This document shows, in pieces, positions 1-15,061 of a stretch of DNA of 20,882 bases. Source of the stretch: a virus. Under the pieces are notes generated by a model that made no database searches, was not told the DNA's origin, and saw nothing but the letters and a program-made list of their open reading frames with translations. Position numbers and translations under genes: made by a program. The stretch's first letter is position 1. Every line of letters begins with the position of its first letter. The stretch lies in the IMG/VR virus record IMGVR_UViG_3300033182_001560, positions 1 to 20,882 of that record. One strand, written 5' to 3'.

Positions 1-58
1 ACGAGTCAAAATAGCTTTTTCCTACACCAAATCTATTATTTCTTCTAAAACCAGCCAT
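1..58 (-). CDS. N-terminus of an unidentified protein (partial, runs off the left edge)
   Basis: An ATG at 58-56 (minus) opens a frame that stays open to the window edge and begins MAGFRRNNRFGVGKSYFDS. Its ATG overlaps the TAA of the upstream 119-aa gene in a TAATG junction, which suggests translational coupling and supports it as a real start. Only 19 residues are visible, basic and Gly/Arg-rich, so no family can be assigned. By position it probably belongs to the same virion-protein transcription unit as its neighbour. Confidence 0.6.
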   Translation of the reverse strand, partial: MAGFRRNNRFGVGKSYFDS

Positions 59-417
59 TAAGTTTCCTCTATACCGTTAACAATAATGTTCACTGACGAC
101 CCTGCGCCACATATGGCTACTATCTGATCAGAATTAGAAGCACCCGCTGTTGAACCGTTATTATTAAGGACTAGAGATGTAGATAAAGACAATGTTTCAT
201 CAGCGGAAAGCGATATGTCATTAAAGAATATATGAGAATCCGCTAAAGTTTCTCCAGCTGGTTTACAGTAAATAGTTACTGTTGTTGTGGCTGAAGAATA
301 GTTGCAAAGTATTATTTCCTTAACTATGGTTACAGTTCCCTGCGGAACGGTATAATAATCCGCACTAGAAGTTGTTAAGGTAGAAGGTCCAACTAAACGT
401 TTTTGATACAGAGGCAT
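58..417 (-). CDS. Small beta-rich virion-type protein (119 aa)
   Basis: This 119-residue protein begins MPLYQKRLVGPSTLTTSS and is made of alternating hydrophobic and Ser/Thr-rich segments ending in VNIIVNGIEET. It has no signal peptide or membrane segment. The pattern, with a VPQGTVTIVKEIILCN strand early and Ser/Thr-rich beta strands after it, resembles small structural or head-decoration proteins common in tailed phages; this is general resemblance, not a named family. AGGGAG lies 6-7 nt before the ATG at 417. It is coupled to the next gene by TAATG and diverges from the P450 unit. Confidence 0.65.
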   Translation of the reverse strand: MPLYQKRLVGPSTLTTSSADYYTVPQGTVTIVKEIILCNYSSATTTVTIYCKPAGETLADSHIFFNDISLSADETLSLSTSLVLNNNGSTAGASNSDQIVAICGAGSSVNIIVNGIEET

Positions 418-471
418 GCAAACTCCCTAAAGATTTGTGATTAATTTTACCACACATTCGACTAATCTTCA

Positions 472-477
472 ATTATA
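472..477 (-). promoter_or_regulatory. Candidate phage promoter (-10 element) for the 119-aa virion gene
   Basis: TATAAT lies on the minus strand about 55 nt upstream of the ATG at 417, inside the 11-mer GTTACTATAAT. The same 11-mer recurs on the minus strand before the 70-aa gene at 12502. No convincing -35 hexamer is visible 16-18 nt upstream, so the recurrence is the main support. Confidence 0.4.
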
Positions 478-522
478 GTAACCTGATACAGTTTTAATCG
501 CAAAAACTAAAGCGTGGTGGAA

Positions 523-543
523 TATACCAAATTATGGTATAAT
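523..543 (+). promoter_or_regulatory. Extended -10 promoter with overlapping inverted repeat, upstream of the P450 unit
   Basis: TGGTATAAT at 535-543 is a perfect extended -10 element (TG-N-TATAAT), with no recognisable -35. It overlaps an inverted repeat, TATACCA (523-529), AATTA, TGGTATA (535-541), which could be an operator. Transcription would start near 549-551, at the ATG of the following gene, so the mRNA would be leaderless. The 10-mer ATGGTATAAT recurs in front of the gene at 16883. Confidence 0.6.
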
Positions 544-550
544 ATCATAT

Positions 551-976
551 ATGAATGAATACATGTATCTCGAAAAAATCACTTTTGCTACCGCTGTTTC
601 TTTTACCGTAGCAGACAGTATTTATAAGATTAGGAAAAATAGGTTCACTCAGCCCAAAAATGTGAAAAAATGGAAAATGGTAATAGCTGACGGGTTGCAT
701 CATTTTAACTATGATTTGAGCAAAATAGTGGAGGAAAGGGGCTATAGCTTTACAGAAACACCATTTGCCTATTGCCATGTAGACTCAAGAACCCTAATAG
801 GCAATCGATACAGTGGATGTGATGCAAGAATATACTTAAACATTGGACCCGGTAAGATGAACTTACCTATGGATTTAGAAGTTGGTGACGCAATGATAAC
901 CACCACAAAAGAAAACACGTTTTATTCAAGACCAGAAAGCATAGTTTTCTACAGGGACCTAGTAAAAAATGACTAA
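551..976 (+). CDS. Unknown 141-aa protein co-transcribed with the P450
   Basis: I do not recognise this protein. It is soluble, with a basic helical N-terminal half (for example KIRKNRFTQPKNVKKWKM) and a C-terminal half of probable beta strands (DARIYLNIGP, then DLEVGDAMITTTKENTFYS). An H76-V-D78 triad followed by a strand like those in 2OG oxygenases hints at a degenerate double-stranded beta-helix, but no distal His or Arg follows, so I make no such call. It has only a few scattered cysteines and no Cys-cluster, so it is not a ferredoxin. The ATG at 551 has no Shine-Dalgarno and sits where transcription should begin; Met5 at 563 is an alternative. It overlaps the P450 gene by 8 nt, so the two are translationally linked. 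Confidence 0.6.
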   Translation: MNEYMYLEKITFATAVSFTVADSIYKIRKNRFTQPKNVKKWKMVIADGLHHFNYDLSKIVEERGYSFTETPFAYCHVDSRTLIGNRYSGCDARIYLNIGPGKMNLPMDLEVGDAMITTTKENTFYSRPESIVFYRDLVKND

Positions 977-2192
977 AGCCCCAATAAGTGATGAGTGGAT
1001 ACTGGAGTTATCTGTTGATCATCATGATCGAGAAGTAAGATCTTCAATTTTTAATACTTACACAGAACTAAGAAAACCAGTATGGTTCAACGATCATAAA
1101 AGGCCAGATATAAACTATTTATCAGTTTTTACCTGGGACGATGTAACACTAGTCAGCTCAAAATCAGATATATTTCACTCTAAAGAAGGCTATCTAATAA
1201 ATGACAACTTTGACAGAATGTCATTTGACGGCTCACTTTTATCAATGAATGGTGAAGAACACAAAAACATGAGAGGGATTGTTTCCTCAATATTCACCAA
1301 CAAAATGGTTCAAGAGTTAGAGCCAATGATAAGAAGAATTACAAAAACCGCCTTTGAAAAAGCTTTATCCAAAAATGATCAAATTGACATATTTCAAACA
1401 GTCTGCACGGAAATACCTTTAAATATAAACGTAGAAATGATGGGTATGCCTGAAGAGTTGAAATATGAGATATTAAATCTCACAAAATTTATAGTCGCAA
1501 ATGATGATCCTGACTATGGGAACAGCAACCCACTAAAATGGCTGCAGGCAACAAAAAAAATGAGGAAGCACGCTTTAAACGTGGGCGAGCTAAATAAAAA
1601 TTCTCAAAATATAAATATGACTACAATGCTGCTAAATTCCATGGATTCCTCTAAAAATCTTACCTTAGAAGAGTACGCACAGTTCTTTATGCTACTAGTT
1701 ATTGCTGGAATGGAAACAACTACACATTCCTTAGCTCACGGTATAAAGTTACTTTACCAGAATCCAGATCAACTTGATTTACTTAAAAACAACTTCGAGA
1801 GTTACATAGAAACAGCTTGTGAAGAAATATTAAGAGTTGAACCAACAGTTATGCACTTCAGAAGAACTGCAACAGTTGATACGGAAATATCTGGTGTACC
1901 AGTTAAAAAGGGTGACAGAATACTAACATGGTACAACTGCGCAAATAACGATCCACAGAAATTCAATGATCCATACCAGTTTGATATCACTAGACCTAAA
2001 AGACCTCTGCATACCACCTTTGGCGGTCCAGGTATACACCACTGCCTTGGCGCTGGTCTAGCTAGACTCGAAATGAAAATATTTTACGAACACCTCTTTG
2101 ACTTTATGCCTCATATAGAAATAGACTTTGAGAACATAAAGTACGTTAAAACACGTTGGGCGAATGGCTACAAATCAATGCCCTTGAAATAA
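969..2192 (+). CDS. Cytochrome P450 (CYP124/CYP125-like heme loop)
   Basis: This is a complete 407-residue soluble bacterial-type P450 monooxygenase; such enzymes insert one oxygen atom from O2 into an organic substrate, using electrons from a separate redox partner. All hallmarks are present: C-helix H98-xxx-R102, I-helix AGMETT at 246-251, K-helix E286-xx-R289, and the heme loop FGGPGIHHCLG at 351-361 with Cys359 as heme ligand. The FGG-x-G-x-H-x-C-LGAxLAR spacing matches actinobacterial CYP124/CYP125/CYP142-type enzymes, known for sterol and branched-lipid oxidation; the substrate here is unknown. No ferredoxin or reductase gene lies in the window, so electrons would come from the host. 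Length is normal and there is no N-terminal membrane anchor. AGGGA lies 11 nt before the ATG. It is convergent with the main gene block. Confidence 0.95.
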   Translation: MTKAPISDEWILELSVDHHDREVRSSIFNTYTELRKPVWFNDHKRPDINYLSVFTWDDVTLVSSKSDIFHSKEGYLINDNFDRMSFDGSLLSMNGEEHKNMRGIVSSIFTNKMVQELEPMIRRITKTAFEKALSKNDQIDIFQTVCTEIPLNINVEMMGMPEELKYEILNLTKFIVANDDPDYGNSNPLKWLQATKKMRKHALNVGELNKNSQNINMTTMLLNSMDSSKNLTLEEYAQFFMLLVIAGMETTTHSLAHGIKLLYQNPDQLDLLKNNFESYIETACEEILRVEPTVMHFRRTATVDTEISGVPVKKGDRILTWYNCANNDPQKFNDPYQFDITRPKRPLHTTFGGPGIHHCLGAGLARLEMKIFYEHLFDFMPHIEIDFENIKYVKTRWANGYKSMPLK

Positions 2193-2248
2193 AAAAGCCT
2201 ATATAGGGTAAAAAGTGAAAAAAATTTTATAGGGGGTTTTTGTTTTTT
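2191..2248. terminator. Probable bidirectional terminator between convergent units
   Basis: CCTATA (2198-2203) and TATAGG (2228-2233) can pair. On the plus strand this is followed by a T-rich run from 2237, which would end the P450 unit. On the minus strand it is followed by C then six T at 2196-2191, which would end the long oxygenase block. The stem is short and AT-rich with a long loop, so the fold is uncertain, but the convergent position and T-runs on both strands fit. Confidence 0.5.
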
Positions 2249-2271
2249 AACTTTTTTTCGTTTTTCGGTTT

Positions 2272-3279
2272 TTATTCTGAATCAGGAATACAGTGTTCAG
2301 ACCTAGGTATATAATGATGCTTATGGTCTATATCATAAAGTTCTGCGGCTAAAGGTGTTATAGAAATCCAAAACTTCTCTCCGACTGTATATTTATCTAG
2401 CCTAAAAGAAATCCAAAACTTCTCTAACATTGTTTTATCCATGTATACAATTTTCCCCTTTTTCTCAGGAGGCTCTCCCATATAGATAGCTGCAGTATTA
2501 TGACCACCTCTAACTAAACTTTGTATATATGAATCCCACTCTTCTTCCGAGTTAAACTCAGATCTTTTCTGATCCCAAATTGTCGTGTCAGTAGTTTCAT
2601 ATTGAATATATGATCTTGTAAAATACTTTTCTGCACCAGATGGACTATTCACGGCATGAAAGTAGGGCTCTCCTTCCGGAGCCTTTGGGTATAAAGGTGA
2701 ACCAGATGGAAAAACAATAATTTCTCCAGCTTTTGGTTTTACTGGAATAATGTTTTCACCATGAAGAAAAACAACTTCACCACCATCGTAATCGTCATTA
2801 ATATAAGTGTTAGCAGTTATTAAAAATTTTCTACCAGGCCAGAACCATTCTCCTATAGGATAATCAGTATGGAACTGCATTCTCAGATTATCTTTATCTG
2901 CATTCGTATGCTCTGCGGGTAATTCTTTTTCATCAAAATATTTAGCGATATTTGGAGACGTTACAAATGAATTTTGTGGCCATTCAATTTGATTATATTC
3001 CATGTAATGATTCACAACTTTAACTGTCGCATTTTTTAAGGTGTCATAACAATATTTCTCTATGCGACATAATTCACTGTCATCCATATATTCACCGTCA
3101 TCTCCATGAACGTTGACAAGACCATAAGTGCCGAATATGAACCAGTCTTTCCACTTCTCAAATATATATTCACCTGTAGAATTACTTTCCATAAACTTTA
3201 CATACTCAAAAAGTTTATCAATTTCATCATAAACATTTTTGTATACAAATATCCTAGGATAAACTTCTTCAAAATCCAT
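2272..3279 (-). CDS. 2-oxoglutarate/Fe(II) oxygenase with unusual C-terminal extension (335 aa)
   Basis: The oxygenase core spans about residues 100-230. Iron ligands appear as H137-T-D139 and H208, and the strand between them carries NDDYDGGEV. The residue ten after the distal His, where Arg normally binds 2-oxoglutarate, is K218; R222 is the alternative. The last ~100 residues have no oxygenase motifs and contain EKFWIS twice. The start at 3279 is supported by AAGGTG 7 nt upstream, and the gene begins 6 nt after the FkbM gene stop. It is the last gene of the minus-strand block, before the terminator. Prolyl-4-hydroxylase-like enzymes hydroxylate proteins, but the substrate here is unknown. 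Confidence 0.85.
   Translation of the reverse strand: MDFEEVYPRIFVYKNVYDEIDKLFEYVKFMESNSTGEYIFEKWKDWFIFGTYGLVNVHGDDGEYMDDSELCRIEKYCYDTLKNATVKVVNHYMEYNQIEWPQNSFVTSPNIAKYFDEKELPAEHTNADKDNLRMQFHTDYPIGEWFWPGRKFLITANTYINDDYDGGEVVFLHGENIIPVKPKAGEIIVFPSGSPLYPKAPEGEPYFHAVNSPSGAEKYFTRSYIQYETTDTTIWDQKRSEFNSEEEWDSYIQSLVRGGHNTAAIYMGEPPEKKGKIVYMDKTMLEKFWISFRLDKYTVGEKFWISITPLAAELYDIDHKHHYIPRSEHCIPDSE
2362..2425 (-). repeat. 19-bp direct repeat encoding EKFWIS twice
   Basis: AGAAATCCAAAACTTCTCT (plus-strand sequence) occurs at 2362-2380 and again at 2407-2425. The 45-bp offset keeps the reading frame, so the oxygenase C-terminus contains two EKFWIS segments 15 residues apart. Perfect nucleotide identity implies a recent local duplication. 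Confidence 0.85.
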
Positions 3280-3865: not shown

Positions 3866-4408
3866 TCAGTTAGCCTTCAGTTTTAACTCAGACCAAAATT
3901 GTGTAGACGATATTTTTTTACCACTTAAAACCTCTAGAGATGCGTGAACATATTCCGACCTAAACAATATTAGTCTATTTTTTTTCTTAGGTATTCTGAT
4001 ATCTAAGTCTTTAAAGTCTAATTCCCCACCTTCATATGAATCATTAATAAAATGAACTGAAGAATATATATGCTGCTTAACCCGAATTTCCTCACTGTGT
4101 GCGTTGTGGTACATATCATCGTGATAGTGCATAGAGCATCCTTTTTCGTATATCATATAAGGTATATGAGCTTTATGACATATATTAATACCATACACAT
4201 CAATGATTGTAGTCCTAAGAAAATCTAGGTAGCTCCATGCAAGAACATCTCCTTCTTGATCTAGAAAATAAGTATACCTATCAACACAGTCACCACTTCG
4301 CTTAAAATAGTCTTGCTTGCCTAATTCTACTTTTTCAAGCAATACATCTATTCCATCAAAAAAATCATCAATTACGCATACGTCATGATCAAAACCGACT
4401 AATTCCAA
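3866..4408 (-). CDS. 2-oxoglutarate/Fe(II) oxygenase, prolyl-4-hydroxylase-like (180 aa, TTG start)
   Basis: This is a compact single-domain oxygenase. Iron ligands are H96-D-D98 in MHYHDD and H155 in YVHASLEVLSG; the middle strand carries NDSYEGGEL. K165 replaces the usual 2-oxoglutarate-binding Arg ten residues after the distal His; animal collagen prolyl 4-hydroxylases also use Lys there. The start is TTG, supported by AGGAG 6 nt upstream, and it lies inside the last ten bases of the WhiB/SGNH gene. The predicted product is a hydroxylase for a protein side chain or small molecule; no substrate can be read from the sequence. Confidence 0.85.
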   Translation of the reverse strand: MELVGFDHDVCVIDDFFDGIDVLLEKVELGKQDYFKRSGDCVDRYTYFLDQEGDVLAWSYLDFLRTTIIDVYGINICHKAHIPYMIYEKGCSMHYHDDMYHNAHSEEIRVKQHIYSSVHFINDSYEGGELDFKDLDIRIPKKKNRLILFRSEYVHASLEVLSGKKISSTQFWSELKLKAN

Positions 4409-5592
4409 TCTAAACTCCTATCTACCAAATTTGCCAAATGTATAGAGTCATGAACCCCAGGCCTATTCCCACGTAGATTGTACTCATAAAATTTCAGCCC
4501 CTCAACATCACACAGGTCACTGCACTCATTTAAATCTAATTTATTTTGCAAATCGAAAATCATTAAAGAATCTATGCAATTACACTCTTTAATTATATCA
4601 TACACAACACCGTCTAGGGATAGAACAACAAACTTACAACCCAAAACTTTACAAACAGCTTGCATATTGTATAGTATAGAAAAAGACTCTAAAATAGCTT
4701 TGTGCTCTTCGTCTTTTCTAAATTCAACATTCTTTACTGAAGAATCTATTATCTTTTCAGGGTGCTCATATCCATAATTATCATTCCAATTTATCGAATA
4801 ATTATAAAAAATTCTTCTACCAACTTTAGAATCTACCTCTAAAGGATAATTGTAGTCATTTAATTTTGAAACTACAATTATAACTTTTTTAGGAACACCA
4901 AAATTATTTAGATGATAAAAAAAGTTTTTAGACAACTTATGTAAGCTGCCATCTACCAAAGACATATTATTTATTTTAATATTTCTCATATCTGATAACA
5001 ACCCTGTCCAGGCATACGACTGAGGAAGACCAACGGGAATACTCTCTTGTCCTCCGAGCACTAAGAGATCAGGATCTTGAACAAAACTTGAACCAACATA
5101 CTTATGCTCGTTTACCCTGTAAGATATAGACTCTTCTGCATCATGCCAGCCTAAGTCTTGATAAATTTTTGGTAAGTCTTTAATATCACCAATTCTTGGT
5201 TCAGATTGGTCTTGAATTCTGACTTCTGCATCAAAACTTAACGACTTATAGTCTATATTTTCATTCTTTATTTGATTTTTAAATAAATAAGTTTTAGAAT
5301 CTGCTAGTCTATGATTTTTCATAAACAAAACATGCTGATAGCACCTTCTATATGTAATATTATTTTTGGATTCCCCAGACAAAAGAGCTTTGTCTATCCA
5401 CTCACACTTTTCTTCATAATTCATCCCAGCAATATAATGATCAATGTTGCTATTAACAGCATAATGAAGGCAATCTACCACTGCTGGGCAATCTGATAAG
5501 CAGGGTGGATCTGCTTCCAGTTCCCTAATAGACATACCTGTACAGGAAGCGCCACTAAACGCATCAGTATCTGGAAGTTTAATCTTATCCAT
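4399..5592 (-). CDS. WhiB-like Cys domain fused to an SGNH-hydrolase-like domain (397 aa)
   Basis: Residues ~15-70 resemble a WhiB iron-sulfur domain: C17, then C31-x3-C35-x5-C41 within CPAVVDCLHYAV, followed by YIAGM in the place of the WhiB G-W/GG turn. WhiB proteins bind a [4Fe-4S] cluster, usually as C-x2-C-x5-C, so the first spacing is one residue longer. Residues ~165-397 look like an SGNH/GDSL esterase fold: block I is LGGQES (179-184, where GDS is usual), block II NNMSLVDGS, block III SKLND with N245, and block V D382-xx-H385. The altered block I makes catalysis doubtful, with S184 the possible nucleophile. I know of no such standard fusion. The gene starts 10 nt after the preceding stop and overlaps the next gene by 10 nt. 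Confidence 0.6.
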   Translation of the reverse strand: MDKIKLPDTDAFSGASCTGMSIRELEADPPCLSDCPAVVDCLHYAVNSNIDHYIAGMNYEEKCEWIDKALLSGESKNNITYRRCYQHVLFMKNHRLADSKTYLFKNQIKNENIDYKSLSFDAEVRIQDQSEPRIGDIKDLPKIYQDLGWHDAEESISYRVNEHKYVGSSFVQDPDLLVLGGQESIPVGLPQSYAWTGLLSDMRNIKINNMSLVDGSLHKLSKNFFYHLNNFGVPKKVIIVVSKLNDYNYPLEVDSKVGRRIFYNYSINWNDNYGYEHPEKIIDSSVKNVEFRKDEEHKAILESFSILYNMQAVCKVLGCKFVVLSLDGVVYDIIKECNCIDSLMIFDLQNKLDLNECSDLCDVEGLKFYEYNLRGNRPGVHDSIHLANLVDRSLDWN

Positions 5593-5602
5593 AAAATAAA
5601 CT

Positions 5603-6286
5603 CTACTCGTAATAGAACTGACCAGTTTCTAGTGCAGACGGAGGACTATCCTTGTGCCAAACATTGACGACCATAACTTGTCTATTCCCAGATTTGGTGG
5701 CAGTTGTTTCATGCAGTCTTCTACCAGCATCAAAGCAGATAAGTCTATTGGGTACGTAAGCTAGTCTCTCTCTTCTTTCCGGTGGTGACTTTATTTTATC
5801 TACGTTTTCCCTCTCTAATGCATCGGTGGGACTGCCTTCTATCCATCCTTCATGCAACTCTAGAAAACCTGGATCAGGACTCTGCGCAAAACCATACCAA
5901 ACACATCCATAAGAAGGAGCATTAAATGTTCTATCTTTTTCATAGGCAAAGCTGTCTTCATCTACATGTATGTCTAAGTACTGTCCTTCTAAGGAAGTTC
6001 TAGTCCAATATTCAAAACCGCATACTTCGTCAATGGGAAAAGGAAGGAAACTTTCATTAGACCATATTTTTTTTATAACCTTTTTCCTCAAAGTATCGGC
6101 TGGAGAGTTCCACCATCCGTCCCAAAACATGTAAGGTGCGTAACAGTCTGCTTCGGTATCATGAAAATAGTTATTATACTTACCAATATTTTCTATGTCA
6201 CCCATATTTTGGGGAAAAAATTGATTGTCTGATTTTATTTCCTCAATTAGATTTTGATCTTTTATAAAGTTATCTATAACTATCAT
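5603..6286 (-). CDS. 2-oxoglutarate/Fe(II) oxygenase (227 aa)
   Basis: Active-site residues are H107-V-D109 in LDIHVDE, the distal H192 in RRLHETT, and R202 ten residues later in SGNRQVMVVNVW. Between them is a longer insert, about residues 115-180, rich in Glu and Pro (for example LHEGWIEG and KSPPERRERL). I chose the ATG at 6286, which lies 10 nt after the stop of the preceding gene and opens with MIVIDNF, the usual N-terminal strand of this family. A longer frame from a GTG at 6331 would overlap the upstream gene by 35 nt and lacks a spaced ribosome site. The substrate is unknown. Confidence 0.85.
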   Translation of the reverse strand: MIVIDNFIKDQNLIEEIKSDNQFFPQNMGDIENIGKYNNYFHDTEADCYAPYMFWDGWWNSPADTLRKKVIKKIWSNESFLPFPIDEVCGFEYWTRTSLEGQYLDIHVDEDSFAYEKDRTFNAPSYGCVWYGFAQSPDPGFLELHEGWIEGSPTDALERENVDKIKSPPERRERLAYVPNRLICFDAGRRLHETTATKSGNRQVMVVNVWHKDSPPSALETGQFYYE

Positions 6287-6296
6287 ATCATTCCAA

Positions 6297-7175
6297 TCAT
6301 AAATTACTATCGTAATAAAGTTTACTTTCACCTATGTCAGATCTATTGAAGATTCTTTGACCCTCAATCCATCCCCCAGAGTAGCTATGAATAACATTTC
6401 TATTATCCCACAATAAAAAATCTCCTTCAGACCACGACCACGTAACCCAATTATTAGAATCTTTTAAATAATCTTCAATGTAAGTACAGTACTCCAGACA
6501 TAGATCTGCATTAGAGGATAGTAACCTGTTTGAAAAAGCACTCATAATGTTAAGGGATACATTTCCTGTAACAGGATGGTTGCATAGTGCTGGATAATTT
6601 CTAATAGGCCACATAACATTGTTATGGTCTATTCCTGGTGACGCTGTATCAAAATCCAGCAGGCTGCTTGTAGCTATCTCTTCATCCCTAGAAGGACCTC
6701 CAGAAAGTGAGATCATATTGTATTTACCTAAAATTTTCTTCAGCCTATGCGGCAGATGTTCAAACATTTCTTCTTTATCTACAAAAATAGTTTTACCGCA
6801 ATCAGAAGAGCAAGTAAAAACTTTCATGTTCATACTTATAAATGTTGGAATCGAAATTTTAGGATCAGATATGGGACTTTCATCTGAATGCCAGTTGCTA
6901 TGCAAATACCTTAGAAGTTCATCAGGAGTGCTGTCAGGACCATACTTAACCTGACCCTCATGGAAATGGCCTTGCCTAAAGTTTATCCTTCCCTCCTGCT
7001 CTGGATCAATTGGTTCACAAGAGTAAACCGACTTCATTATCTCCATCTGCTCATCAGGCTTTAAATCGATAGAAGGAACAACAACGGCTTTTCCATTCAT
7101 TAAAGCCGAATGAATTGACTCGGCGCTAAACAGTAAGTCTTCATATGAGTTGGCTAACAACTTATAAATTTTCAT
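6297..7175 (-). CDS. TauD/TfdA-family 2-oxoglutarate dioxygenase (292 aa)
   Basis: This differs from the other oxygenases and follows the TauD/TfdA pattern, whose members hydroxylate small molecules such as taurine, clavaminate precursors or betaine-like compounds. H96-S-D98 in NWHSDESP gives the facial triad with H263 in DNRNVIHSYSGG, and WSEGDFLLWDNR precedes it as usual. R274 and R278 fall 11 and 15 residues after the distal His, the TauD spacing for substrate and 2-oxoglutarate contacts. Length is typical. The ATG at 7175 overlaps the preceding TAA in a TAATG junction. A small-molecule substrate is more likely here than a protein one, but none is identified. Confidence 0.9.
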   Translation of the reverse strand: MKIYKLLANSYEDLLFSAESIHSALMNGKAVVVPSIDLKPDEQMEIMKSVYSCEPIDPEQEGRINFRQGHFHEGQVKYGPDSTPDELLRYLHSNWHSDESPISDPKISIPTFISMNMKVFTCSSDCGKTIFVDKEEMFEHLPHRLKKILGKYNMISLSGGPSRDEEIATSSLLDFDTASPGIDHNNVMWPIRNYPALCNHPVTGNVSLNIMSAFSNRLLSSNADLCLEYCTYIEDYLKDSNNWVTWSWSEGDFLLWDNRNVIHSYSGGWIEGQRIFNRSDIGESKLYYDSNL

Positions 7176-7957
7176 TATAACTTATAATTTCCTGACATCA
7201 TTCTAGCTTTAGAATCCTCTATGAGATCTGGCATCCATATTCTATATGGATTTTCTTGACCTATAACTTCATCTCTTTCAAAGTCTACACCATAACAAGC
7301 CATTGTCAAAAATGCGTACCTAGCTCCACTAGTAACTGGGTACACCTCATGTCTACCTATGTAATTAGAAGGATATATTAATACAGTCCCAGGCTTAGGA
7401 CTATACTCAACATTTATATTTGGAAAATGCATTTGACCACCCTCATAATCTTTTCCGCATTCATTTAAATATAAATTTGTACTCGTACTGTTGTGCATAG
7501 AAACCTGATTCTGAGGCCTAGATCCCCATTCCCAAGGAATCTGATCATCACAGTGAGCACCTATATGCTGACCATCTTCATACCCAGCGATGTGGCCTTT
7601 TGGTCTCCACCAAGCTGTAGTGGCAGCATCGGGGAAATAAGCGCAATACTCAACAAGTGCGTCATATATTGCGTCTTCGCACTTCTGAATAAAATCTACC
7701 CACTCAGGCTTCGGCTCCCTACCTATCTGCTCACCCTTAAGGTCCAAAAATCTTTGCGGTGCTAAATTAATATCATCTAATCTAAATTTAAATCCTGTCT
7801 TATTTCTGGCATACTTTACACCATCTTCCTCATAGTATGTAAAAGAATCTTCTTCATTCTTTTTAAGCCAAGATGTGTACTCTGTAACTAAATCTTTATC
7901 AATTTCTAAAACATTTTCACATGCAACTATGCCCATACCTAAGTGAACTGATTCCAT
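7175..7957 (-). CDS. 2-oxoglutarate/Fe(II) oxygenase, WW-GH subgroup, copy 4 (260 aa)
   Basis: Numbered from the ATG at 7957, iron ligands are H135-C-D137 and H203, with R213 binding 2-oxoglutarate (HEVYPVTSGARYAFL). The segment AWWRPKGHIAGYEDG just before the HxD motif is shared with the three genes upstream and marks a distinct subgroup. The N-terminal LGMGIVACENV strand also aligns with them. I chose the ATG at 7957 because AGAGG lies 5 nt before it; an in-frame ATG at 7972 would add five residues. A 65-nt gap separates it from the preceding gene, wider than most junctions here. It couples to the TauD-like gene by TAATG. Confidence 0.85.
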   Translation of the reverse strand: MESVHLGMGIVACENVLEIDKDLVTEYTSWLKKNEEDSFTYYEEDGVKYARNKTGFKFRLDDINLAPQRFLDLKGEQIGREPKPEWVDFIQKCEDAIYDALVEYCAYFPDAATTAWWRPKGHIAGYEDGQHIGAHCDDQIPWEWGSRPQNQVSMHNSTSTNLYLNECGKDYEGGQMHFPNINVEYSPKPGTVLIYPSNYIGRHEVYPVTSGARYAFLTMACYGVDFERDEVIGQENPYRIWMPDLIEDSKARMMSGNYKL

Positions 7958-8022
7958 AATAACCTCTTTCATTTCATTTTACCTAAAAATATCTCTTCAA
8001 TAAAAGTACGTGTGCATCAATC

Positions 8023-8904
8023 CTATGTGTTAAGGTTTGTTACCTTGTATTGCTCAGAGCTCTTATCATAACCTTTGGCTAATAAATATTCTCTATAATC
8101 CTCTCTGAGTGTGGGCATGTAGACGTTAGTACTAATTCTTGCTTTTTCCGGCTCTTTAACTGGGTCACATACGTCTTCATACACTGAAGGATTAGGAGTT
8201 CCCTGACTATACCATCCGAGATATGAAACCCTGTGCCCCTTTCCAACAGGCTTAACTTCATGCGCAGCCATGAAATTAGAAGGAAACATAAGTATATCTC
8301 CTGCTTTAGGTTGGTAATCAATATCTAAGTAATTAAAATAGTGATGACCTTCAGTAAAATTGTTACCTGTCAACTCCTCCTCAGAATCAACGGAAGAATT
8401 AACATAAACTAGACAAGAAATTATACTCCTAAGAGCCAGTTCATCTCTAGTAGAATGTACTCCATATATGTACTCTGCGCTTGTGTCAGAATGGCTACCA
8501 AGGTACACGCCATCCCTATAAGATACTACATGCCCCTTTACCTTCCACCATACACAATTGTAAGCTAAAGGAAACATCTCAAAGTATTTTAATAAATACT
8601 TATCTTTAGACTCTTCTAAAAAATTGAATAACTCGTGAACCTCATCCCTAGGGTCTTGATGCATCATTGATGCCCTTCTGGGCATGGAATATATAGAGTC
8701 TTTACTGAAAAGATATCCACTCTTATTCATGTAAGTTTCCTCACCAGTTTCTGGGTCAGAAGTTATATCATACATAGCAGCCTCTTCTTCATCCAGGGCT
8801 CTACAGAAGATGTCATAGGTCCAATCAAAATCGTAGTCTACTGCGTTTCGAAAAAGTACTACACCGCCACCTAAATGCTCAGGATCAACGTCATTATAAA
8901 TCAT
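8023..8904 (-). CDS. 2-oxoglutarate/Fe(II) oxygenase, WW-GH subgroup, copy 3 (293 aa)
   Basis: Iron ligands are H138-S-D140 in LGSHSDTS and H215 in AAHEVKPV, with R225 at the 2-oxoglutarate position. The subgroup signature VWWKVKGHVVSYRDG lies at about 118-132, and the N-terminal strand LGGGVVLFRN matches copies 1 and 2. The chain ends in a family-specific tail that includes YMPTLREDYREYL. The start overlaps the preceding stop in an ATGA junction and has AGAGG 7 nt upstream. Domain order and length match the neighbours closely, so this arose by tandem duplication. The cosubstrate is 2-oxoglutarate; the target is unknown. Confidence 0.88.
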   Translation of the reverse strand: MIYNDVDPEHLGGGVVLFRNAVDYDFDWTYDIFCRALDEEEAAMYDITSDPETGEETYMNKSGYLFSKDSIYSMPRRASMMHQDPRDEVHELFNFLEESKDKYLLKYFEMFPLAYNCVWWKVKGHVVSYRDGVYLGSHSDTSAEYIYGVHSTRDELALRSIISCLVYVNSSVDSEEELTGNNFTEGHHYFNYLDIDYQPKAGDILMFPSNFMAAHEVKPVGKGHRVSYLGWYSQGTPNPSVYEDVCDPVKEPEKARISTNVYMPTLREDYREYLLAKGYDKSSEQYKVTNLNT

Positions 8905-9788
8905 TTCTCAACCTCTTCTCTTGTATTAGAACTATGAAAATCTCTACTAACCGGTATTAACTTATGGTCATCATGAGTTTCTCCATAAAATTCTATCACA
9001 TATTTTTTATAATCAGCAAATAATTCTGGCATCCATACTTGGCCACCAAATCTTCCATCTACTGGATCAGAAACCCGAACACCCCTAGTCGGATCGGAAG
9101 AACCCTGACCAAAGTATTCAAGATAAGCAAATCTGTTGCCCTCTTTTACACCCTTTACTTCGTGCGTACACATAAAGTTAGCTGGAAACATTAGTACATC
9201 ACCACGTTGTGGTTTGTAAACTAGTTCTGCGTAAGGAAAATGAATCTCTCCGCCAGTAAAATTTCCATCTTCATATTTTTCTGTAGAAGAATTGAAATAT
9301 GTTATCGCAGCCAGTACGTGACGTATGCCTAGTTGATAGTCTGGCTCAAATCCAGGGGAAAAGTTTATGTCGTTATCGCAATGCAGACCCAGATCTGCTC
9401 CAGCCCCATATGCTAGTACATGCCCCTGGGTTTTCCACCATAAGCAGGGTAACACCATAGGATATATGGATGCATACTCAATCATAGATCGGTACAGCAT
9501 CTCTTCGCAGTGAGAAAAGAATTCTTTCTGCCAGTCTGATTCAAAGTAGTCGTAGAAATCAGTTATTCTACTGCAGCTTTTATCAATATCCTCTATCTTA
9601 AAACGATGTCCACTTTTGTTAGTAGCATAAAGAGCATTCCCATCTTCATCATAAACATATGAATAATGCTTTTCCCTCGCATCGTTTTTTAGTTTTAAAA
9701 GATAATCAGTTATGCCATCAGGTACATTAATTTTATTCCTAAATAAAACTATTCCATTACCCAACAACTCACAGTTATTGGGTAACAT
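8901..9788 (-). CDS. 2-oxoglutarate/Fe(II) oxygenase, WW-GH subgroup, copy 2 (295 aa)
   Basis: Iron ligands are H136-C-D138 in LGLHCDND and H209 in CTHEVKGV, with R219 as the 2-oxoglutarate ligand. LWWKTQGHVLAYGAG at about 116-130 carries the subgroup signature. FTGGEIHFPYAELVYKPQRGDVLMFP is split across the middle strands exactly as in prolyl-4-hydroxylase-like folds (in brief: TGGEIHF, then KPQRGDVLMFP). The tail has VWMPELFADYKKYV, as in the other copies. The ATG directly follows the TAA of copy 1 (TAAATG) with AGGAG 6 nt upstream. Confidence 0.88.
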   Translation of the reverse strand: MLPNNCELLGNGIVLFRNKINVPDGITDYLLKLKNDAREKHYSYVYDEDGNALYATNKSGHRFKIEDIDKSCSRITDFYDYFESDWQKEFFSHCEEMLYRSMIEYASIYPMVLPCLWWKTQGHVLAYGAGADLGLHCDNDINFSPGFEPDYQLGIRHVLAAITYFNSSTEKYEDGNFTGGEIHFPYAELVYKPQRGDVLMFPANFMCTHEVKGVKEGNRFAYLEYFGQGSSDPTRGVRVSDPVDGRFGGQVWMPELFADYKKYVIEFYGETHDDHKLIPVSRDFHSSNTREEVEK

Positions 9789-10901
9789 TTACTGCTCCTG
9801 ACCTATGATAACCGGATCGGTGCCGCAGTTCGCAGCGTCCGTTCCAGGAATCTCTTCCGCCTCATGAGTTGTACCATACTGAGCAACACACCTACCCTGA
9901 TAGACTGGATTTATACCAATATAGGTCTCTTCACCAGTCGTAAATCTTGAGTACTCAGACTTACAGTAGCGCTCATAGTCATCGTATATATTGTTCATCC
10001 ACACAGCAGGACACCATTGGGTAGAGGCATCTGTTTCAGCTATTTCTATATTTGCCTCTCTATGAGGAGATCCCTGACCAAAGAAAGAAAGATAACTATA
10101 CCTAACTCCTGCTTCCATTCTGTCAACATCATGTGAGGCCATATAATTTGTAGGAAAGAAAACTATATCGCCTTTTTCTGGCTTATAGTCAATATCTAAG
10201 TGGAAGAATCTCAAATGACCGCCAACAAAATTTCTACCGTCTAAATCATCCTCAGAATCAACAGAATCATTTAGATACACTAATGCTCCACACGTTTGTC
10301 TGGCTGCCATCTGACCCCTAGGCATATATCTAACACCTTCTGTAACCTTATAGTTTGTGTCGTTATCACAATGGGCACCAAGTACACCTTGGTCTTGATA
10401 CCTAAGAATGTGGCCCCTATTTTTCCACCACAAACACCCTACGATAAGAGGAAAATGGTCAACATACTTAATCAGACACTTATAAATAGTATCTTCCATA
10501 TTGTAAAAGAAGTCACGAATATTATCAGGTGTATCTGGATCTATTGGATGAAGAATTCTAACAGGTGTAGCGGGGATGTCTTCTGGTCTATATCTGAATC
10601 CATCTTCGTTTATACCGTAGGTCTCACCATCTTCAGCTTCAATATATTCCCATCTATTTTGATGGGACTTCGCAGCTCTGTCATCTAGATACTGGTATAC
10701 TGGTTCTTCGTCAAACTTAAGGACATTTTTAAATATTAGAATTCCACCACCGAGGTTTTCAACTTTGAACTCTGATATTTCTTTTAATTCATCATCACCA
10801 ATAACAGGTGTATCTGGAAATATTATATTTGAAACAAAAGCACCTGGGGGTAAATCATATTCTTGCTGCCCTTGCTCCTGCCCACTCATTGTGTCACTCA
10901 T
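9789..10901 (-). CDS. 2-oxoglutarate/Fe(II) oxygenase, WW-GH subgroup, copy 1 with N- and C-terminal extensions (370 aa)
   Basis: This is the largest of the four paralogs. Iron ligands are H177-C-D179 in LGAHCDND and H257 in ASHDVDRM, with R267 at the 2-oxoglutarate position. LWWKNRGHILRYQD at about 157-170 is the subgroup signature. About 45 extra N-terminal residues are Gln/Glu/Pro-rich (MSGQEQGQQEYDLPPG), and a ~60-residue C-terminal tail has several Cys and acidic residues and no known motif. It follows its own sigma-70-like promoter, with AAGGG 7 nt before the ATG, and is the first gene of the sub-operon that runs through copies 2-4. Extensions of this kind could mediate binding to a virion partner; that is a guess. 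Confidence 0.88.
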   Translation of the reverse strand: MSDTMSGQEQGQQEYDLPPGAFVSNIIFPDTPVIGDDELKEISEFKVENLGGGILIFKNVLKFDEEPVYQYLDDRAAKSHQNRWEYIEAEDGETYGINEDGFRYRPEDIPATPVRILHPIDPDTPDNIRDFFYNMEDTIYKCLIKYVDHFPLIVGCLWWKNRGHILRYQDQGVLGAHCDNDTNYKVTEGVRYMPRGQMAARQTCGALVYLNDSVDSEDDLDGRNFVGGHLRFFHLDIDYKPEKGDIVFFPTNYMASHDVDRMEAGVRYSYLSFFGQGSPHREANIEIAETDASTQWCPAVWMNNIYDDYERYCKSEYSRFTTGEETYIGINPVYQGRCVAQYGTTHEAEEIPGTDAANCGTDPVIIGQEQ

Positions 10902-10929
10902 GTAAAACCCTTCTTAAACATAATACATA

Positions 10930-10958
10930 ATCATACTATAACAATAAACAAAATTCAA
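10930..10958 (-). promoter_or_regulatory. Sigma-70-like promoter for the four-copy oxygenase sub-operon
   Basis: On the minus strand, TTGAAT (10958-10953) and TATGAT (10935-10930) are separated by exactly 17 nt in a 76-nt AT-rich gap. Transcription would start near 10923, leaving a ~22-nt leader that holds the AAGGG ribosome site of the gene at 10901. Part of the -10 area (TTATAGTATG) recurs before the FN3 fibre gene. Confidence 0.6.
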
Positions 10959-10977
10959 TTACAAATAAAAACTTCAA

Positions 10978-11718
10978 TTACTTCTTAATTATCACTTGAT
11001 AGCCAATACCGTGAGAAAGGTGATAAGAAGTTATATCATCCCTATCTAATAGCTGCTCGTAAACGTCAACAACAGGTTCCATATAATAATCTTCTGTATA
11101 GAGCCTACCAGACTCATTACCATACTCACCATGTATAACTCCGCCAGAAACAACTGAAGATATAATATCTTCCATAAAGTTATTGTCCACAACAAAGTCG
11201 TAAACAGGCGCACTTACGAAATCAAATTCTCCTGTTAACGAAGATAGGTCTTGCATATCTACAGTTCTATAGGAGAATGAAAAGGGGTAAGATGGCAAGT
11301 CTCTAACAAAATTTTCAAATATGAACAAAGACTCATTGTTAACGAATGTTAAATTACATCCCGAATTAGCTAACAGTGCCAATAATTCAAAGTGAGTATC
11401 AGGCTCAACAATAAGTGCATTGGTGGGCTTAATCATATCCATTACCATCTGGCAATAGAAGCCAACACTTAAGAAAATGTGATCCTTCCAACCTTCTTGA
11501 TTAGAACCTAAGACATCCCATAGATGAATTTTAGCTACAGCCCCTACGGCAACAACTCTTCTGTCCAAGTTTATAGAGTTATTATATTCACCCACTGCCC
11601 TTGATATATCACCGACAACTTCATCCCAGTCATATTCAAGAGATCTTCCAGCGTAGTTGCTAACCTCTCTAGTGACTGTACTTGTTATAAGAAATCTATT
11701 GTCTACAATATTATGCAT
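10978..11718 (-). CDS. Methyltransferase-like Rossmann-fold protein (246 aa), weak assignment
   Basis: The strand/helix order suggests a class I methyltransferase fold: HIFLSVGFYC where motif I would be, ALIVEPD as strand 2 ending in an acidic residue, CNLTFVNNE, FDFVSAPVYDF as strand 4, GGVIHGEYGN as strand 5 and YHLSHGIGYQVIIKK as the C-terminal hairpin. The glycine-rich SAM loop is degenerate, with no GxGxG, so catalysis is doubtful. It overlaps the 108-aa gene by 8 nt and is the last gene before the internal promoter. The alternative is an unrelated alpha/beta phage protein. Confidence 0.4.
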   Translation of the reverse strand: MHNIVDNRFLITSTVTREVSNYAGRSLEYDWDEVVGDISRAVGEYNNSINLDRRVVAVGAVAKIHLWDVLGSNQEGWKDHIFLSVGFYCQMVMDMIKPTNALIVEPDTHFELLALLANSGCNLTFVNNESLFIFENFVRDLPSYPFSFSYRTVDMQDLSSLTGEFDFVSAPVYDFVVDNNFMEDIISSVVSGGVIHGEYGNESGRLYTEDYYMEPVVDVYEQLLDRDDITSYHLSHGIGYQVIIKK

Positions 11719-12037
11719 CTGCTGCCGCCTTTGCTATGTTGTACCTATACCATAATCTTCTAACTGAAGATGTTAAAGCTATGCATCTTATATTTACATT
11801 GATCTGAGCAGACGTTAAAACTTGACCAAATTCACGTAGCTCACTTCTAATTCTTTGGTATGGAAATATTTCCCTAATTTTTTCTACCACTTCATCAATA
11901 GTTAGAACGTTTAACTGATCAGCAGAATAGCCCAATAGCAATAGTATCTCAGTTAGTTTTTCCTCACAATAATCTACCTCACTAGTTGCAGAAAAAGTGT
12001 TGATAGGGTTGGCGGGATCGTAATTTCTTAAACTCAT
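11711..12037 (-). CDS. Unknown 108-aa helical protein
   Basis: I do not recognise this protein. It is predicted mostly helical: amphipathic stretches such as EEKLTEILLLLGYSADQ, a VVEKIREIFPYQRIRSELREF segment split by Pro, and a basic C-terminus with VRRLWYRYN. There is no signal peptide or membrane segment. Its start overlaps nothing but its ATG lies within the stop of the 84-aa gene's ATGA junction at 12034-12037. It overlaps the following gene by 8 nt. Size and position among small co-transcribed genes fit a phage accessory or assembly factor, without direct evidence. Confidence 0.6.
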   Translation of the reverse strand: MSLRNYDPANPINTFSATSEVDYCEEKLTEILLLLGYSADQLNVLTIDEVVEKIREIFPYQRIRSELREFGQVLTSAQINVNIRCIALTSSVRRLWYRYNIAKAAADA

Positions 12038-12288
12038 AACGACCTACTATCGTCTAACTCATCTCTTATATCAGCAAAACCGCTATCTTCTAATCTTACA
12101 CAATTAAGGTATTCCCTATTAGAAGTAATCCATGCTAACTTATCTTTGTTAAAGGATACAGTTCTTTGTTGAAAGTCTTCAGAATCAAAAGGGTCATCTG
12201 AAAGATCTGGATTAACAGATATCTCTTTAGCTCCCACCTCTGAAGCCATAGTATCTAAGTCTTTTTTTGAAAGCGTAAACTTCTTCAT
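12034..12288 (-). CDS. Unknown 84-aa acidic protein
   Basis: I do not recognise this protein. It has a Lys-rich start (MKKFTLSKKDL), an acidic middle (NPDLSDDPFDSEDF) and a C-terminus with EDSGFADIRDELDDSRSL, so it is strongly negative overall and probably partly disordered. AAAGG lies 6 nt before the ATG. It begins 1 nt after the preceding stop and ends in an ATGA overlap with the 108-aa gene, which together support it as real. Confidence 0.6.
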   Translation of the reverse strand: MKKFTLSKKDLDTMASEVGAKEISVNPDLSDDPFDSEDFQQRTVSFNKDKLAWITSNREYLNCVRLEDSGFADIRDELDDSRSL

Positions 12289-12289
12289 A

Positions 12290-12502
12290 TCACACCTTTA
12301 ACTTTGAAAGATTGATGTACATCTCTTTCATAGATCTATAAGACTCATAACTATCATCATCTTCTGATACTGGAATAATATAATCAACAGTAAGATCATC
12401 TAGTGCAACTCCTAGAGATGTTGCCATAGAGGCTACACCAAACTCTAGAAACTCTATTGACTTTTGCTTAGCTCTATTAACAGCTTCTTCTGAAAGGGCC
12501 AT
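12290..12502 (-). CDS. Unknown 70-aa protein
   Basis: I do not recognise this protein. It begins MALSEEAVNRAKQKSIEFLE, an amphipathic helix, and continues with a hydrophobic LGVALDDLTVDYIIPV segment and an acidic linker. The ATG at 12502 is preceded by AAGGAG at a 6-nt spacing, better than a TTG at 12529 that would add nine residues. A candidate phage promoter lies about 30 nt upstream, making this the first gene of a small cluster with the 84-aa, 108-aa and methyltransferase-like genes. Confidence 0.6.
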   Translation of the reverse strand: MALSEEAVNRAKQKSIEFLEFGVASMATSLGVALDDLTVDYIIPVSEDDDSYESYRSMKEMYINLSKLKV

Positions 12503-12531
12503 AATAAACTCCTTAATGATTTCGAACAAAC

Positions 12532-12537
12532 ATTATA
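12532..12537 (-). promoter_or_regulatory. Candidate phage promoter (-10 element) in front of the small-gene cluster
   Basis: TATAAT lies in GTTACTATAAT, the same 11-mer seen upstream of the 119-aa virion gene. It sits in the short gap after the glutathione-peroxidase-like gene and would give a leader of about 23 nt that contains the AAGGAG site of the 70-aa gene. No clear -35 is visible. Confidence 0.4.
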
Positions 12538-12547
12538 GTAACAGGCT

Positions 12548-13168
12548 CTAACCCAGAACCTCATCTATGCATTCTCTAATTGTCCAACTTTCTCCTGTAG
12601 TCAAAGGAACATCGTCTAGCGGCATTGCCTGCCAATTGAATCTTCCTATCATTGTCCCAGTTCTACCAACAATAAACATTTCCCAAGTGTGAGGAATTCT
12701 AGCTAAAGCTGAACCCTCTTGATTCCATCCTTCTCTAGCCTGGTCAGAGTTATCAGCCATACTGTCAGACTTATTTCTTAATGCCTTACCCTTAAGAAGC
12801 GAATAGACCTCACACTCATTTGGCCCATTAACATCTACCTTTTCAGCTATAGGAAAAGTAACAAATGGATACGTCTCTTTCATAAAAGCGCTTATTTCCT
12901 CATTCGTACCAGTCTCCATAAGAGACTGCACAAACTGATTACAAGGGAAAGCAACAACACTAAATCCCCTATCTTCAAACTCTTCCTGAAGCTTTTGAAG
13001 CTGCCAAAAATGTCTCATTGATCTAGCGTATGACCAGAACACAGAACACTGAGGGGTATAATTATATTTAGATACAGTATTAACAATAAGAGTTACCTTA
13101 CCCTTAAACTGTTCCATAAAATTATCTTCGCCATCTATAGACTTAACCTGTACATCATATATAGACAT
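12548..13168 (-). CDS. Glutathione-peroxidase-fold protein lacking the catalytic residues (206 aa)
   Basis: The chain aligns with glutathione peroxidases along its length: MSIYDVQVKSIDG, GKVTLIVNTVSK, TPQC, DRGFSVVAFPCNQF, GTNEEI, VTFPIAEKVDVNG and FIVGRTG. GPx enzymes reduce peroxides with a peroxidatic Cys/Sec supported by Gln, Trp and Asn. Here the Cys position (SKC in the family) is Tyr35 in SKYNYTPQC; the Gln loop is rebuilt (VQSLMETG); and the Trp-Asn of the WNF motif are His160-Thr161. Cys41 and Cys76 remain. About 14 residues are inserted after TPQC. It is therefore probably a non-enzymatic or repurposed thioredoxin-fold protein. The ATG at 13168 forms a TAATG overlap and follows GAGG by 7-8 nt; an ATG at 13183 is less likely. 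Confidence 0.75.
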   Translation of the reverse strand: MSIYDVQVKSIDGEDNFMEQFKGKVTLIVNTVSKYNYTPQCSVFWSYARSMRHFWQLQKLQEEFEDRGFSVVAFPCNQFVQSLMETGTNEEISAFMKETYPFVTFPIAEKVDVNGPNECEVYSLLKGKALRNKSDSMADNSDQAREGWNQEGSALARIPHTWEMFIVGRTGTMIGRFNWQAMPLDDVPLTTGESWTIRECIDEVLG

Positions 13169-13449
13169 TACACAACCTCGCATATTGATTCAAGATAAAC
13201 TTCATCTAAAGTAGGATCTTCTAATTTAACCACACATTTATCACTGTCTAGTGAAAAAATTAACCTACAATCAAAAGGAACATCTAATTCACCTTCTGCC
13301 AAAAGTAAGTCTTCATCATCTATAACAATATTTAAATCCGCAGAACCCTTAAATATTGACAGAGTCAACTTATCTTCACCCTTTTCTAGGGTAAACTCTT
13401 CACTACCTAAGGGAGTTATAACTTTCATTTTACTAGGAACATCATTCAT
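13168..13449 (-). CDS. Unknown 93-aa beta-rich protein
   Basis: I do not recognise this protein. It has alternating hydrophobic strands and acidic turns (EEFTLEKGEDKLTLSIF, then NIVIDDEDLLLAEGELDV, then CRLIFSLDSDKCVVKLEDP), suggesting a small beta sandwich. The ATG at 13449 follows AAGGAGG by 9 nt; a TTG at 13458 sits directly against that site and is unlikely. It overlaps the preceding gene by 8 nt and couples to the GPx-like gene by TAATG, so the pair may act together. Confidence 0.6.
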   Translation of the reverse strand: MNDVPSKMKVITPLGSEEFTLEKGEDKLTLSIFKGSADLNIVIDDEDLLLAEGELDVPFDCRLIFSLDSDKCVVKLEDPTLDEVYLESICEVV

Positions 13450-14167
13450 TGTAGGCAACCTCCTTGATCTCTGGCTCCTTTAGGGTAGGCAAGCCCTCAT
13501 GTCTAGGGCCTATTCTATCACCTTTTTCATTTAAACCTGTTCTTATACCGTTCATCCATGTCCAAGGCTCATCGCGTAATTTCTTCATTTTAGCCTCACT
13601 ATATGACATTCTTTCCTTCATCAAATCCGGCTTATCCCAAAGATACTCTACTTCAACATCCATCTCTGGCATAAGTTTTGAAGGATAAACCATAAAAAAT
13701 ATAAAAGGCATGCCTGCAGGGAATAATACAGGTTCGTTTACCTTGGTGATTTTCCAGCCTGCCTGAACCTCATCTGGCCACCAGTCTGAAGGTATGCTAG
13801 CTGTCAAAGGAACCGCACCATCAACAAAGTAGTTAGGTGAACCGCTTATCCATGTATGGAATCCAGGCTCTGTTTTAAACGCCCATCCTATATGAAAATC
13901 GATCATACCTATTTTATTGCAGTTAGCGATAGTTCTTCCACGATAAACGTCACCCTCAACGATTTGTGGGACGCTGTTGCCACCTTCCCAAGTGACAACA
14001 ACGTCCTGCTGCAAAATGGCTTCCCAACCATTTACATTTGCAGCACTGAGTGGAAGACACCTATAAGCATGTTTGTTATAGGTATCATCCATCCAGTCTC
14101 TTTTCAGTCTCGACTGCTTAACCTCAGGCGAGATCTGATGTGTTCTTACTAGAGTAAGCTTAGACAC
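13442..14167 (-). CDS. DUF6065-like protein (241 aa, GTG start)
   Basis: No catalytic motif is obvious. Recognisable stretches include CLPLSAANVNGWEAI near residue 37, VTWEGG, GFHTWISGSPNYFVDGAVPL and IPSDWWPDEVQ, together with FPAGMPFIFFMVYP. From memory these resemble a domain of unknown function, DUF6065, found in bacteria and phages; a profile search would settle it. The protein is Trp-rich, with a predicted beta-rich core of about 180 residues and a charged helical tail. The GTG start at 14167 overlaps the TAG of the upstream oxygenase, and CAGGAG lies 7 nt upstream. Cupin-like or 2OG-related folds remain possible. Confidence 0.5.
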   Translation of the reverse strand: MSKLTLVRTHQISPEVKQSRLKRDWMDDTYNKHAYRCLPLSAANVNGWEAILQQDVVVTWEGGNSVPQIVEGDVYRGRTIANCNKIGMIDFHIGWAFKTEPGFHTWISGSPNYFVDGAVPLTASIPSDWWPDEVQAGWKITKVNEPVLFPAGMPFIFFMVYPSKLMPEMDVEVEYLWDKPDLMKERMSYSEAKMKKLRDEPWTWMNGIRTGLNEKGDRIGPRHEGLPTLKEPEIKEVAYNE

Positions 14168-15054
14168 TATCTTGCTCCTGCTACATATTGCTGATATTGG
14201 CCCATGTTACTCATATCGCCACCATTTGCCTGCCACTGCTTGTAGCTTTCCATGGCATAGTTTTGAATTTCTTCCTGAATTATCTGTCTTAGCTTTGATT
14301 CATCCATACCAATAGTGGAGTCAGATTTCTTAACTGGGGCAGTTCCACCACTCTTAACAACTGGAGCAGTTTCAGGATTGATTGAAGGCTTTTCTGGTTG
14401 AACATACTTTTGCCCAAAATCTCTTGAAAAACCAGCGTGTTGATGCGCATCATCATTATAGTCAAACATCGTTACTGCACTATATTTTATACCTGACGTA
14501 ACCGGCTTAGACGCATGCGCAAAGATATATGTTGAAGGGAAAAATACACTGTCACCAGCTTCTGGCTTCCATGTTATATCAAGGTAAGGGAAGTACAGCT
14601 CCCCACCCTCATAATCATCATTTATATAAGATACACAAGACACCGTGCAAATATAAGAGAATCCGTGATCAGAATGAACACTGAAGTGCTCTTTAACTCC
14701 ATATCTAACAAAGTTAATTGCCTCCATATAGTTCATCGATATACCATATGTAGAACAATAATCTTTAAGGCAGTCTTTCTGCATAGATGCAACTGTAGTG
14801 TAGACATCTACAAGATCTGAAAATTCAGAAGGTGTTCCAGAAATAAATTTTTCATCCATCTTAAAGTCTACACAGTCTCTATAGTCTGGCATCTTTACAC
14901 CCTCACCAACAAGAGAATCATGCCACTTAAAGTACTCATGACTGCTATCTCTCAAAGCTGTCTCCAACCTAAGTGGTATATTATCTTCTTGAGATATCGT
15001 ATCTTTATATACTACAATTCCTAGTGATGGATCACCTAAGTGTTCTTTGCGCAT
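14167..15054 (-). CDS. 2-oxoglutarate/Fe(II) oxygenase with Pro/Lys-rich linker and helical tail (295 aa)
   Basis: Numbered from the ATG at 15054, iron ligands are H127-S-D129 in FSVHSDHGF and H180 in IFAHASKPVTSG; K190 stands at the 2-oxoglutarate position, ten after the distal His, where Arg is usual. NDDYEGGELYFPYLDITW is the middle-strand region. The last ~75 residues form a Pro/Thr/Lys linker and a helix with KLRQIIQEEIQNYAMESY, which no other oxygenase here has and which may bind a partner. The start is uncertain: 15054 lies 8 nt after the preceding stop and opens MRKEHLGDPSLGIVVY like the family, while an ATG at 15084 would overlap by 23 nt without a good ribosome site. Confidence 0.85.
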   Translation of the reverse strand: MRKEHLGDPSLGIVVYKDTISQEDNIPLRLETALRDSSHEYFKWHDSLVGEGVKMPDYRDCVDFKMDEKFISGTPSEFSDLVDVYTTVASMQKDCLKDYCSTYGISMNYMEAINFVRYGVKEHFSVHSDHGFSYICTVSCVSYINDDYEGGELYFPYLDITWKPEAGDSVFFPSTYIFAHASKPVTSGIKYSAVTMFDYNDDAHQHAGFSRDFGQKYVQPEKPSINPETAPVVKSGGTAPVKKSDSTIGMDESKLRQIIQEEIQNYAMESYKQWQANGGDMSNMGQYQQYVAGAR

Positions 15055-15061
15055 ACTAAAA

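Follow-up and report, generated by a model that had tools for sequence, protein, structure and literature searches.

An exchangeable cassette encoding an intact cytochrome P450 in a group of phages with probable actinobacterial hosts

We found that a viral sequence of 20,882 nucleotides (IMG/VR record IMGVR_UViG_3300033182_001560, positions 1 to 20,882; hereafter the window), from a virus that probably infects aquatic actinobacteria, carries an intact cytochrome P450 gene with complete catalytic motifs, in a small cassette that some close relatives share and others precisely lack. Our preferred reading, to which we assign a probability of about 0.45, is that the P450 of this exchangeable cassette, transcribed from the cassette's own promoter, hydroxylates a branched or isoprenoid lipid of the host by way of host redox proteins. 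The features discussed below are listed in Table 1.

Table 1. Location of the cassette, its neighbours and the P450 genes of related phages
Feature	Record	Coordinates	Strand	Remark
Left neighbour, tail/virion-type protein (phrog_20100)	window	58..417	-	100% amino acid identical in P450-less sister
Mobile cassette (promoter region, ORF141, P450)	window	531..2192	+	absent from sister phages G401/G402
Candidate extended -10 promoter TGGTATAAT	window	535..543	+	7 nt before ATG551
ORF141, 141 aa	window	551..976	+	first gene of unit; no family match
Cytochrome P450, 407 aa	window	969..2192	+	intact ORF; start overlaps upstream ORF by 8 nt
I-helix oxygen-activation motif AGMETT, residues 246-251	window	1704..1721	+	read directly
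ExxR motif EILR, residues 286-289 (E286, R289)	window	1824..1835	+	read directly
Heme-binding loop FGGPGIHHCLG (F351...C359-L-G361)	window	2019..2051	+	read directly
A/T-rich terminator-like element	window	2193..2275	.	between convergent P450 and 2OG oxygenase genes
Right neighbour, 2OG-Fe(II) oxygenase	window	2272..3279	-	76% amino acid identical in sister
Oxygenase island	window	3866..16883	-	ten further 2OG-Fe(II) oxygenases, TauD-like enzyme, glutathione peroxidase
Type B P450	3300007541_008324, 3300025646_008632			
Type C P450	3300043438_001827, 3300042324_000876			also in two fragments
Type D P450	3300034104_004584 (206 kb), 3300042507_005041, 3300044716_001607			
WS/DGAT-family acyltransferase upstream of type C P450	L249	6596-8005		overlaps P450
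WS/DGAT-family acyltransferase upstream of type D P450	L251	6578-7966		overlaps P450

The P450 gene and its cassette

The initial annotation described a complete P450 with all hallmarks, in a unit opposed to the surrounding genes and equipped with its own promoter and terminator. The gene is indeed complete: its product matches PF00067 (E=3.8e-26, 92 bits against a Pfam cut-off of 22.8), which places it in the superfamily, and the heme-thiolate Cys loop, the ExxR motif and the I-helix pair are all present. The axial ligand is Cys359 (codon 2043-2045), and the I-helix reads A246-G247-M-E249-T250-T251, with E249-T250 as the acid-alcohol pair. The GC content of the gene is 36%, versus 38% for the phage.

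The unit also holds a second gene that the earlier reader had missed, ORF141, whose 3' end runs into the P450 start. Both genes lie on the plus strand between flanking genes on the minus strand, which bears out the opposed orientation. Identification of ORF141 as a ferredoxin, a flavodoxin or a 2OG-like protein was rejected, with no motif, no family or PDB match and an hhalign probability of 0.3%. No lipid signature was found in it, and its AlphaFold model was uninformative (pLDDT 40).

Upstream of ORF141, an extended -10 pattern at the given ATG spacing occurs once in the window versus 0.13 times expected, and the equivalent of TGGTATAAT in the relative, TGGTATAGT, likewise lies 7 nt before the ATG. 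Consensus and conservation therefore make this a candidate promoter belonging to the cassette, and its distance from ATG551 points to a leaderless mRNA. No good -35 was found at the candidate, and a simple sigma-70 scan missed it. The claimed terminator did not hold up. The A/T-rich element behind the P450 recurs once elsewhere in the 86-kb relative G002 and is also present in P450-less sister phages, so it is not the cassette's own; an intrinsic-terminator scan of the unit found none, and the fold was unremarkable (z=-0.88). A terminator specific to the P450 unit was rejected on these grounds.

The two sister phages without the P450, IMGVR_UViG_3300007538_000049 and 3300025655_000054, align to window positions 1-530 at 97% nucleotide identity and resume at 2193, with about 6 nt in between; the missing piece stops exactly at the P450 stop codon. 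Since they lack exactly 531-2192, this is a discrete cassette that carries its candidate promoter. Presence and absence at one site between close relatives is a mark of a moron, and the moron-like build first proposed is supported by the exact empty site of this accessory cassette. Differences were also observed around it. The right neighbour is the outlier among the proteins shared by window and sister, the remainder being 92-100% identical, and its nucleotide identity is 83% at 2272-3279 versus 93-97% elsewhere. Three genes near the cassette site are likewise missing in the sister. This low identity, together with the three further missing genes, suggests that the site undergoes homologous exchange of blocks.

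A search for the same unit in related phages, proposed with the initial annotation, recovered it from two IMG/VR contigs of 61,635 and 86,299 bases, which are 99.9% alike where compared. In both, ORF141 and the P450 stand between the same flanking genes as in the window, and the amino acid identity to the window is 88% for the P450 and 84% for ORF141. Both genes are under strong purifying selection and are selectively maintained. The identities of the three codon positions between window and relative are 0.91/0.96/0.60, a divergence biased to third positions, and dN/dS (NG86) is ~0.04 for the P450 and ~0.07 for ORF141, values to be read with caution as dS is ~1.5, near saturation.

These comparisons bear directly on two further readings, namely that host DNA was wrongly joined to the phage during assembly, or that the gene is a passenger in decay. 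The cassette is polymorphic between close relatives, and cells of the presumed host phylum carry many P450s, as these readings would allow. Against both stand the identical junctions and flanks in independent contigs, the open reading frames, the low dN/dS of the P450, its phage-like GC content, and the fact that none of the cellular P450s found exceeds 38% identity. Chimeric assembly is refuted by the shared junctions and the precise empty site, which uphold a phage origin, and we consider this explanation as a whole extremely improbable.

The phage group, its host and the oxygenase island

Actinobacteria are well supported as the host phylum. WhiB is described as actinobacterium-specific (PMC7771536), and PF02467 matched over its cut-off in the 86-kb and 61-kb relatives (G001/G002) and in five other records of the group; in the control set, a match was found in Corynebacterium only. 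Because the relatives encode WhiB, the host is taken to be actinobacterial. Within the 20.9-kb window itself, Pfam identified no WhiB. A 397-aa protein at 4399-5592 (minus strand), matchless in Pfam, shows WhiB-like cysteine spacing by eye at its N-terminus. Among deposited phages, the left neighbour of the cassette matched just one, whose host is the actinobacterium Pontimonas. The phage group is well marked by a 241-aa protein at 13442-14167 (minus strand), which at least 80 related viral contigs share at 62-93% identity and which has no match among deposited phages; at least 156 related viral loci were retrieved with it.

A tail gene lies on one side of the cassette and a dozen iron dioxygenases on the other. 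Eleven 2OG-Fe(II) oxygenases lie within 2272-16883, all with an invariant HxD...H, the right neighbour being the eleventh. This minus-strand island is unusually dense for one phage segment and has a glutathione peroxidase at its middle. The island of one relative (L006:2762-4267, 15912-17363, 18591-19628) holds a tryptophan halogenase, a carbamoyltransferase and a GlcNAc-type glycosyltransferase. Beyond the island, an FN3-like tail protein (16939-19104, minus strand) ends in about 20 tandem (F/Y)FPP units, with the repeats at ~16946-17195. Relatives G002, G402 and G417 share this tail, and G452 encodes an FPP-repeat protein of 142 aa.

Classification of the P450

From the heme loop, the P450 had been read as a CYP124/125-type enzyme; the affinity holds and membership does not. 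In a first tree it falls within a CYP268/CYP124-like clade (UFB 96 / SH-aLRT 97), and in a more widely sampled tree it is basal to that clade at 90/81, which answers the phylogenetic check proposed at the outset. Inner support for its placement is 84/97 and 81/39 in the two trees, and its stem is very long (~2 changes per site), so its position within the clan is not secure. In both trees it lies outside the CYP125 and CYP142 branches. An AlphaFold2 model (pLDDT 78, pTM 0.81) was searched against the PDB with Foldseek, and the top matches were CYP125MRCA, CYP124, CYP268 and CYP125/142, with P450s at TM 0.8-0.87. The CYP124 structures among the top matches have cholestenone, phytanic acid or farnesol bound, and the CYP268 structure has pseudoionone. 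By sequence, the closest solved structures are CYP125MRCA (35%, E=8e-66) and CYP124 (33%, the value for the M. tuberculosis enzyme). Tree and predicted fold together place the P450 in the CYP124/268/125/142 clan.

P450 families are delimited at an identity of at least 40% to family members. A search of 395 Acidimicrobiia genomes and a species-genome scan yielded no cellular P450 above 38% identity, and Acidimicrobiia genomes of roughly 1.1 Mb, which may be Actinomarinales, held only distant P450s (28-29%). As its identity to the cellular P450s found does not exceed 35-38%, membership in CYP124 or CYP125 was rejected and, judged by this measure, the protein would constitute its own new family within the clan. 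Recent capture from a host was likewise rejected for the genomes scanned.

P450s in related phages

The P450 survey covered 51 records among the at least 156 related loci plus the loci themselves, and dedicated scans then added more P450s. Besides the type of the window (type A), three more types, named B, C and D, occur in related phages, all collinear with and inside the oxygenase island. Type B falls inside an Acidimicrobiia CYP124-like clade (100/100) and has 47-51% identity to cellular P450s. Types C and D, 39% identical to each other, belong to another part of the P450 tree, not close to type A, and each directly follows and overlaps an ORF for a WS/DGAT-family acyltransferase, whose HHxxxDG motif is intact in C.

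A single viral origin of all four types was rejected (AU p=7e-5), while monophyly of A and B was not (AU p=0.098), which implies at least two, perhaps three, acquisitions. The phage group has thus taken up P450s at least twice independently. The further uptake of other P450s by related viruses, on at least one occasion, suggests that such viruses have had repeated use for enzymes of this class. A bolder generalisation, which we regard as doubtful, is that a hypervariable island in widespread large actinobacterial phages repeatedly recruits unrelated P450s, each with a small partner or an acyltransferase, and that this amounts to a lipid- or virion-oxidising pathway of the phage run on host electrons alone, which would make a new category of function in phage metabolism.

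Proposed function

In our preferred reading, what we infer is the expression of the cassette, the redox supply by the host, the lipid substrate and the benefit to the phage. During infection, the P450 and its small conserved partner ORF141 would be made from the cassette's own promoter. The P450, of the class-I bacterial type, would take up heme and draw electrons from a host ferredoxin and ferredoxin reductase. It would most likely hydroxylate a hydrophobic molecule of the host at its terminal or branched end, with a methyl-branched fatty acid, an isoprenoid, a quinone side chain or a sterol-like lipid as candidates, and the product would be a changed membrane or lipid chemistry of the host. 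The window P450 would then be one of several captured by the phage group into an oxygenase-rich region near tail genes.

As the initial annotation had noted for the window, no redox partner is recognisable: a motif search of the window, of the 86-kb relative and of the 206-kb phage in the group found neither ferredoxin nor flavodoxin, which points to electron donors of the host. Other viral P450s have likewise been proposed to rely on host donors (PMC9405906). The clan, the closest folds and the WS/DGAT genes next to types C and D favour a substrate that is hydrophobic, branched or isoprenoid. Methyl-branched lipids are hydroxylated at the omega position by CYP124, and the side chain of cholesterol is oxidised by CYP125/142 (PMC6469627). 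An identity of 33-35% is too low for a safe transfer of the substrate class, and the lipid-type neighbour occurs with types C and D, which are not close to type A. The island, with its 2OG oxygenases and, in relatives, the halogenase, glycosyltransferase and carbamoyltransferase, looks more like a system for modifying proteins, glycans or small molecules.

The P450 and the 2OG oxygenases could accordingly act on the virion, oxidising side chains of tail proteins, for example in the (F/Y)FPP repeats, or sugars on them. P4H-like 2OG oxygenases directly follow the FPP tail gene, so the repeats may be their hydroxylation substrate; the position of the cassette between tail gene and oxygenases, the conservation of the FFPP/YFPP repeats in the adjoining tail protein of several relatives, and the collinearity of types B, C and D inside the island also fit such a role. 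Yet type A has a candidate promoter of its own and the opposite orientation, the sister without the cassette keeps its tail genes and most of its oxygenases, and the enzymes that resemble the P450 in fold and sequence have lipids and sterols as substrates. We judge virion or glycan modification to be unlikely.

The P450 might instead tailor a secondary metabolite or signal, or detoxify a compound of the habitat, to the benefit of the infected host. Generic P450s from bacterial biosynthetic clusters match it as well, and one relative has the halogenase and carbamoyltransferase, but the window annotation includes no PKS, NRPS or RiPP scaffold enzymes, and the clan affinity is again to lipid and sterol enzymes; this role seems quite unlikely to us. 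If oxidation of a host lipid is the correct reading, these phages would use electrons of the host to alter the lipids of actinobacteria; if the virion is the target, they would oxidise tail proteins of their own. In either case, the empty site in a near-identical sister provides a natural with/without pair.

Comparison with known P450 systems

CYP124 and CYP268 share the fold of the window P450 (TM ~0.86), its long heme loop and the conserved segments FRRTATxDTEI and WYNxANxD, and form its best-supported sister clade in the first tree. At 33-35% identity, however, they fall under the usual 40% family limit; their I-helix reads AGNETTRN where the window P450 has AGMETTTH, and the window P450 sits on its own long branch. 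For CYP125 and CYP142, the steroid C26/27 hydroxylases, it is the reconstructed ancestor CYP125MRCA that is the best PDB match in both sequence and fold, whereas the window P450 stands apart from both of their branches.

P450 genes had initially been called rare in phages. Among deposited phages, searches with the window P450 and with CYP124 gave no match at the sensitivity used, in line with rarity there; since the reported P450 of Mycobacterium phage Adler was not recovered either, such a search is blind to distant P450s. That case, CYP102L1 (Lamb et al. 2019, via PMC11814380 and PMC9405906), and the three further types in relatives qualify the claim of rarity. As summarised in these later papers, the Adler enzyme is likewise a P450 of an actinobacteriophage without redox partners of the phage; by that description it differs in being named to another family, CYP102, and in being reported as host-derived, whereas the window P450 has no close cellular source among the genomes scanned and is carried, together with a partner ORF, on an exchangeable cassette. 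The best viral fold match was CypX A0A6J5NCR8 of an uncultured Caudovirales phage (BFVD, E=1e-17), at only 22% identity. Giant viruses also encode proteins with this P450 fold, with full-length matches below 20% identity and eukaryotic hosts. Phage P450s were previously known from an isolated case or two; what is new here is the clan, the cassette with its natural empty site, and the recurrence in one phage group of four P450 types with at least two independent origins.
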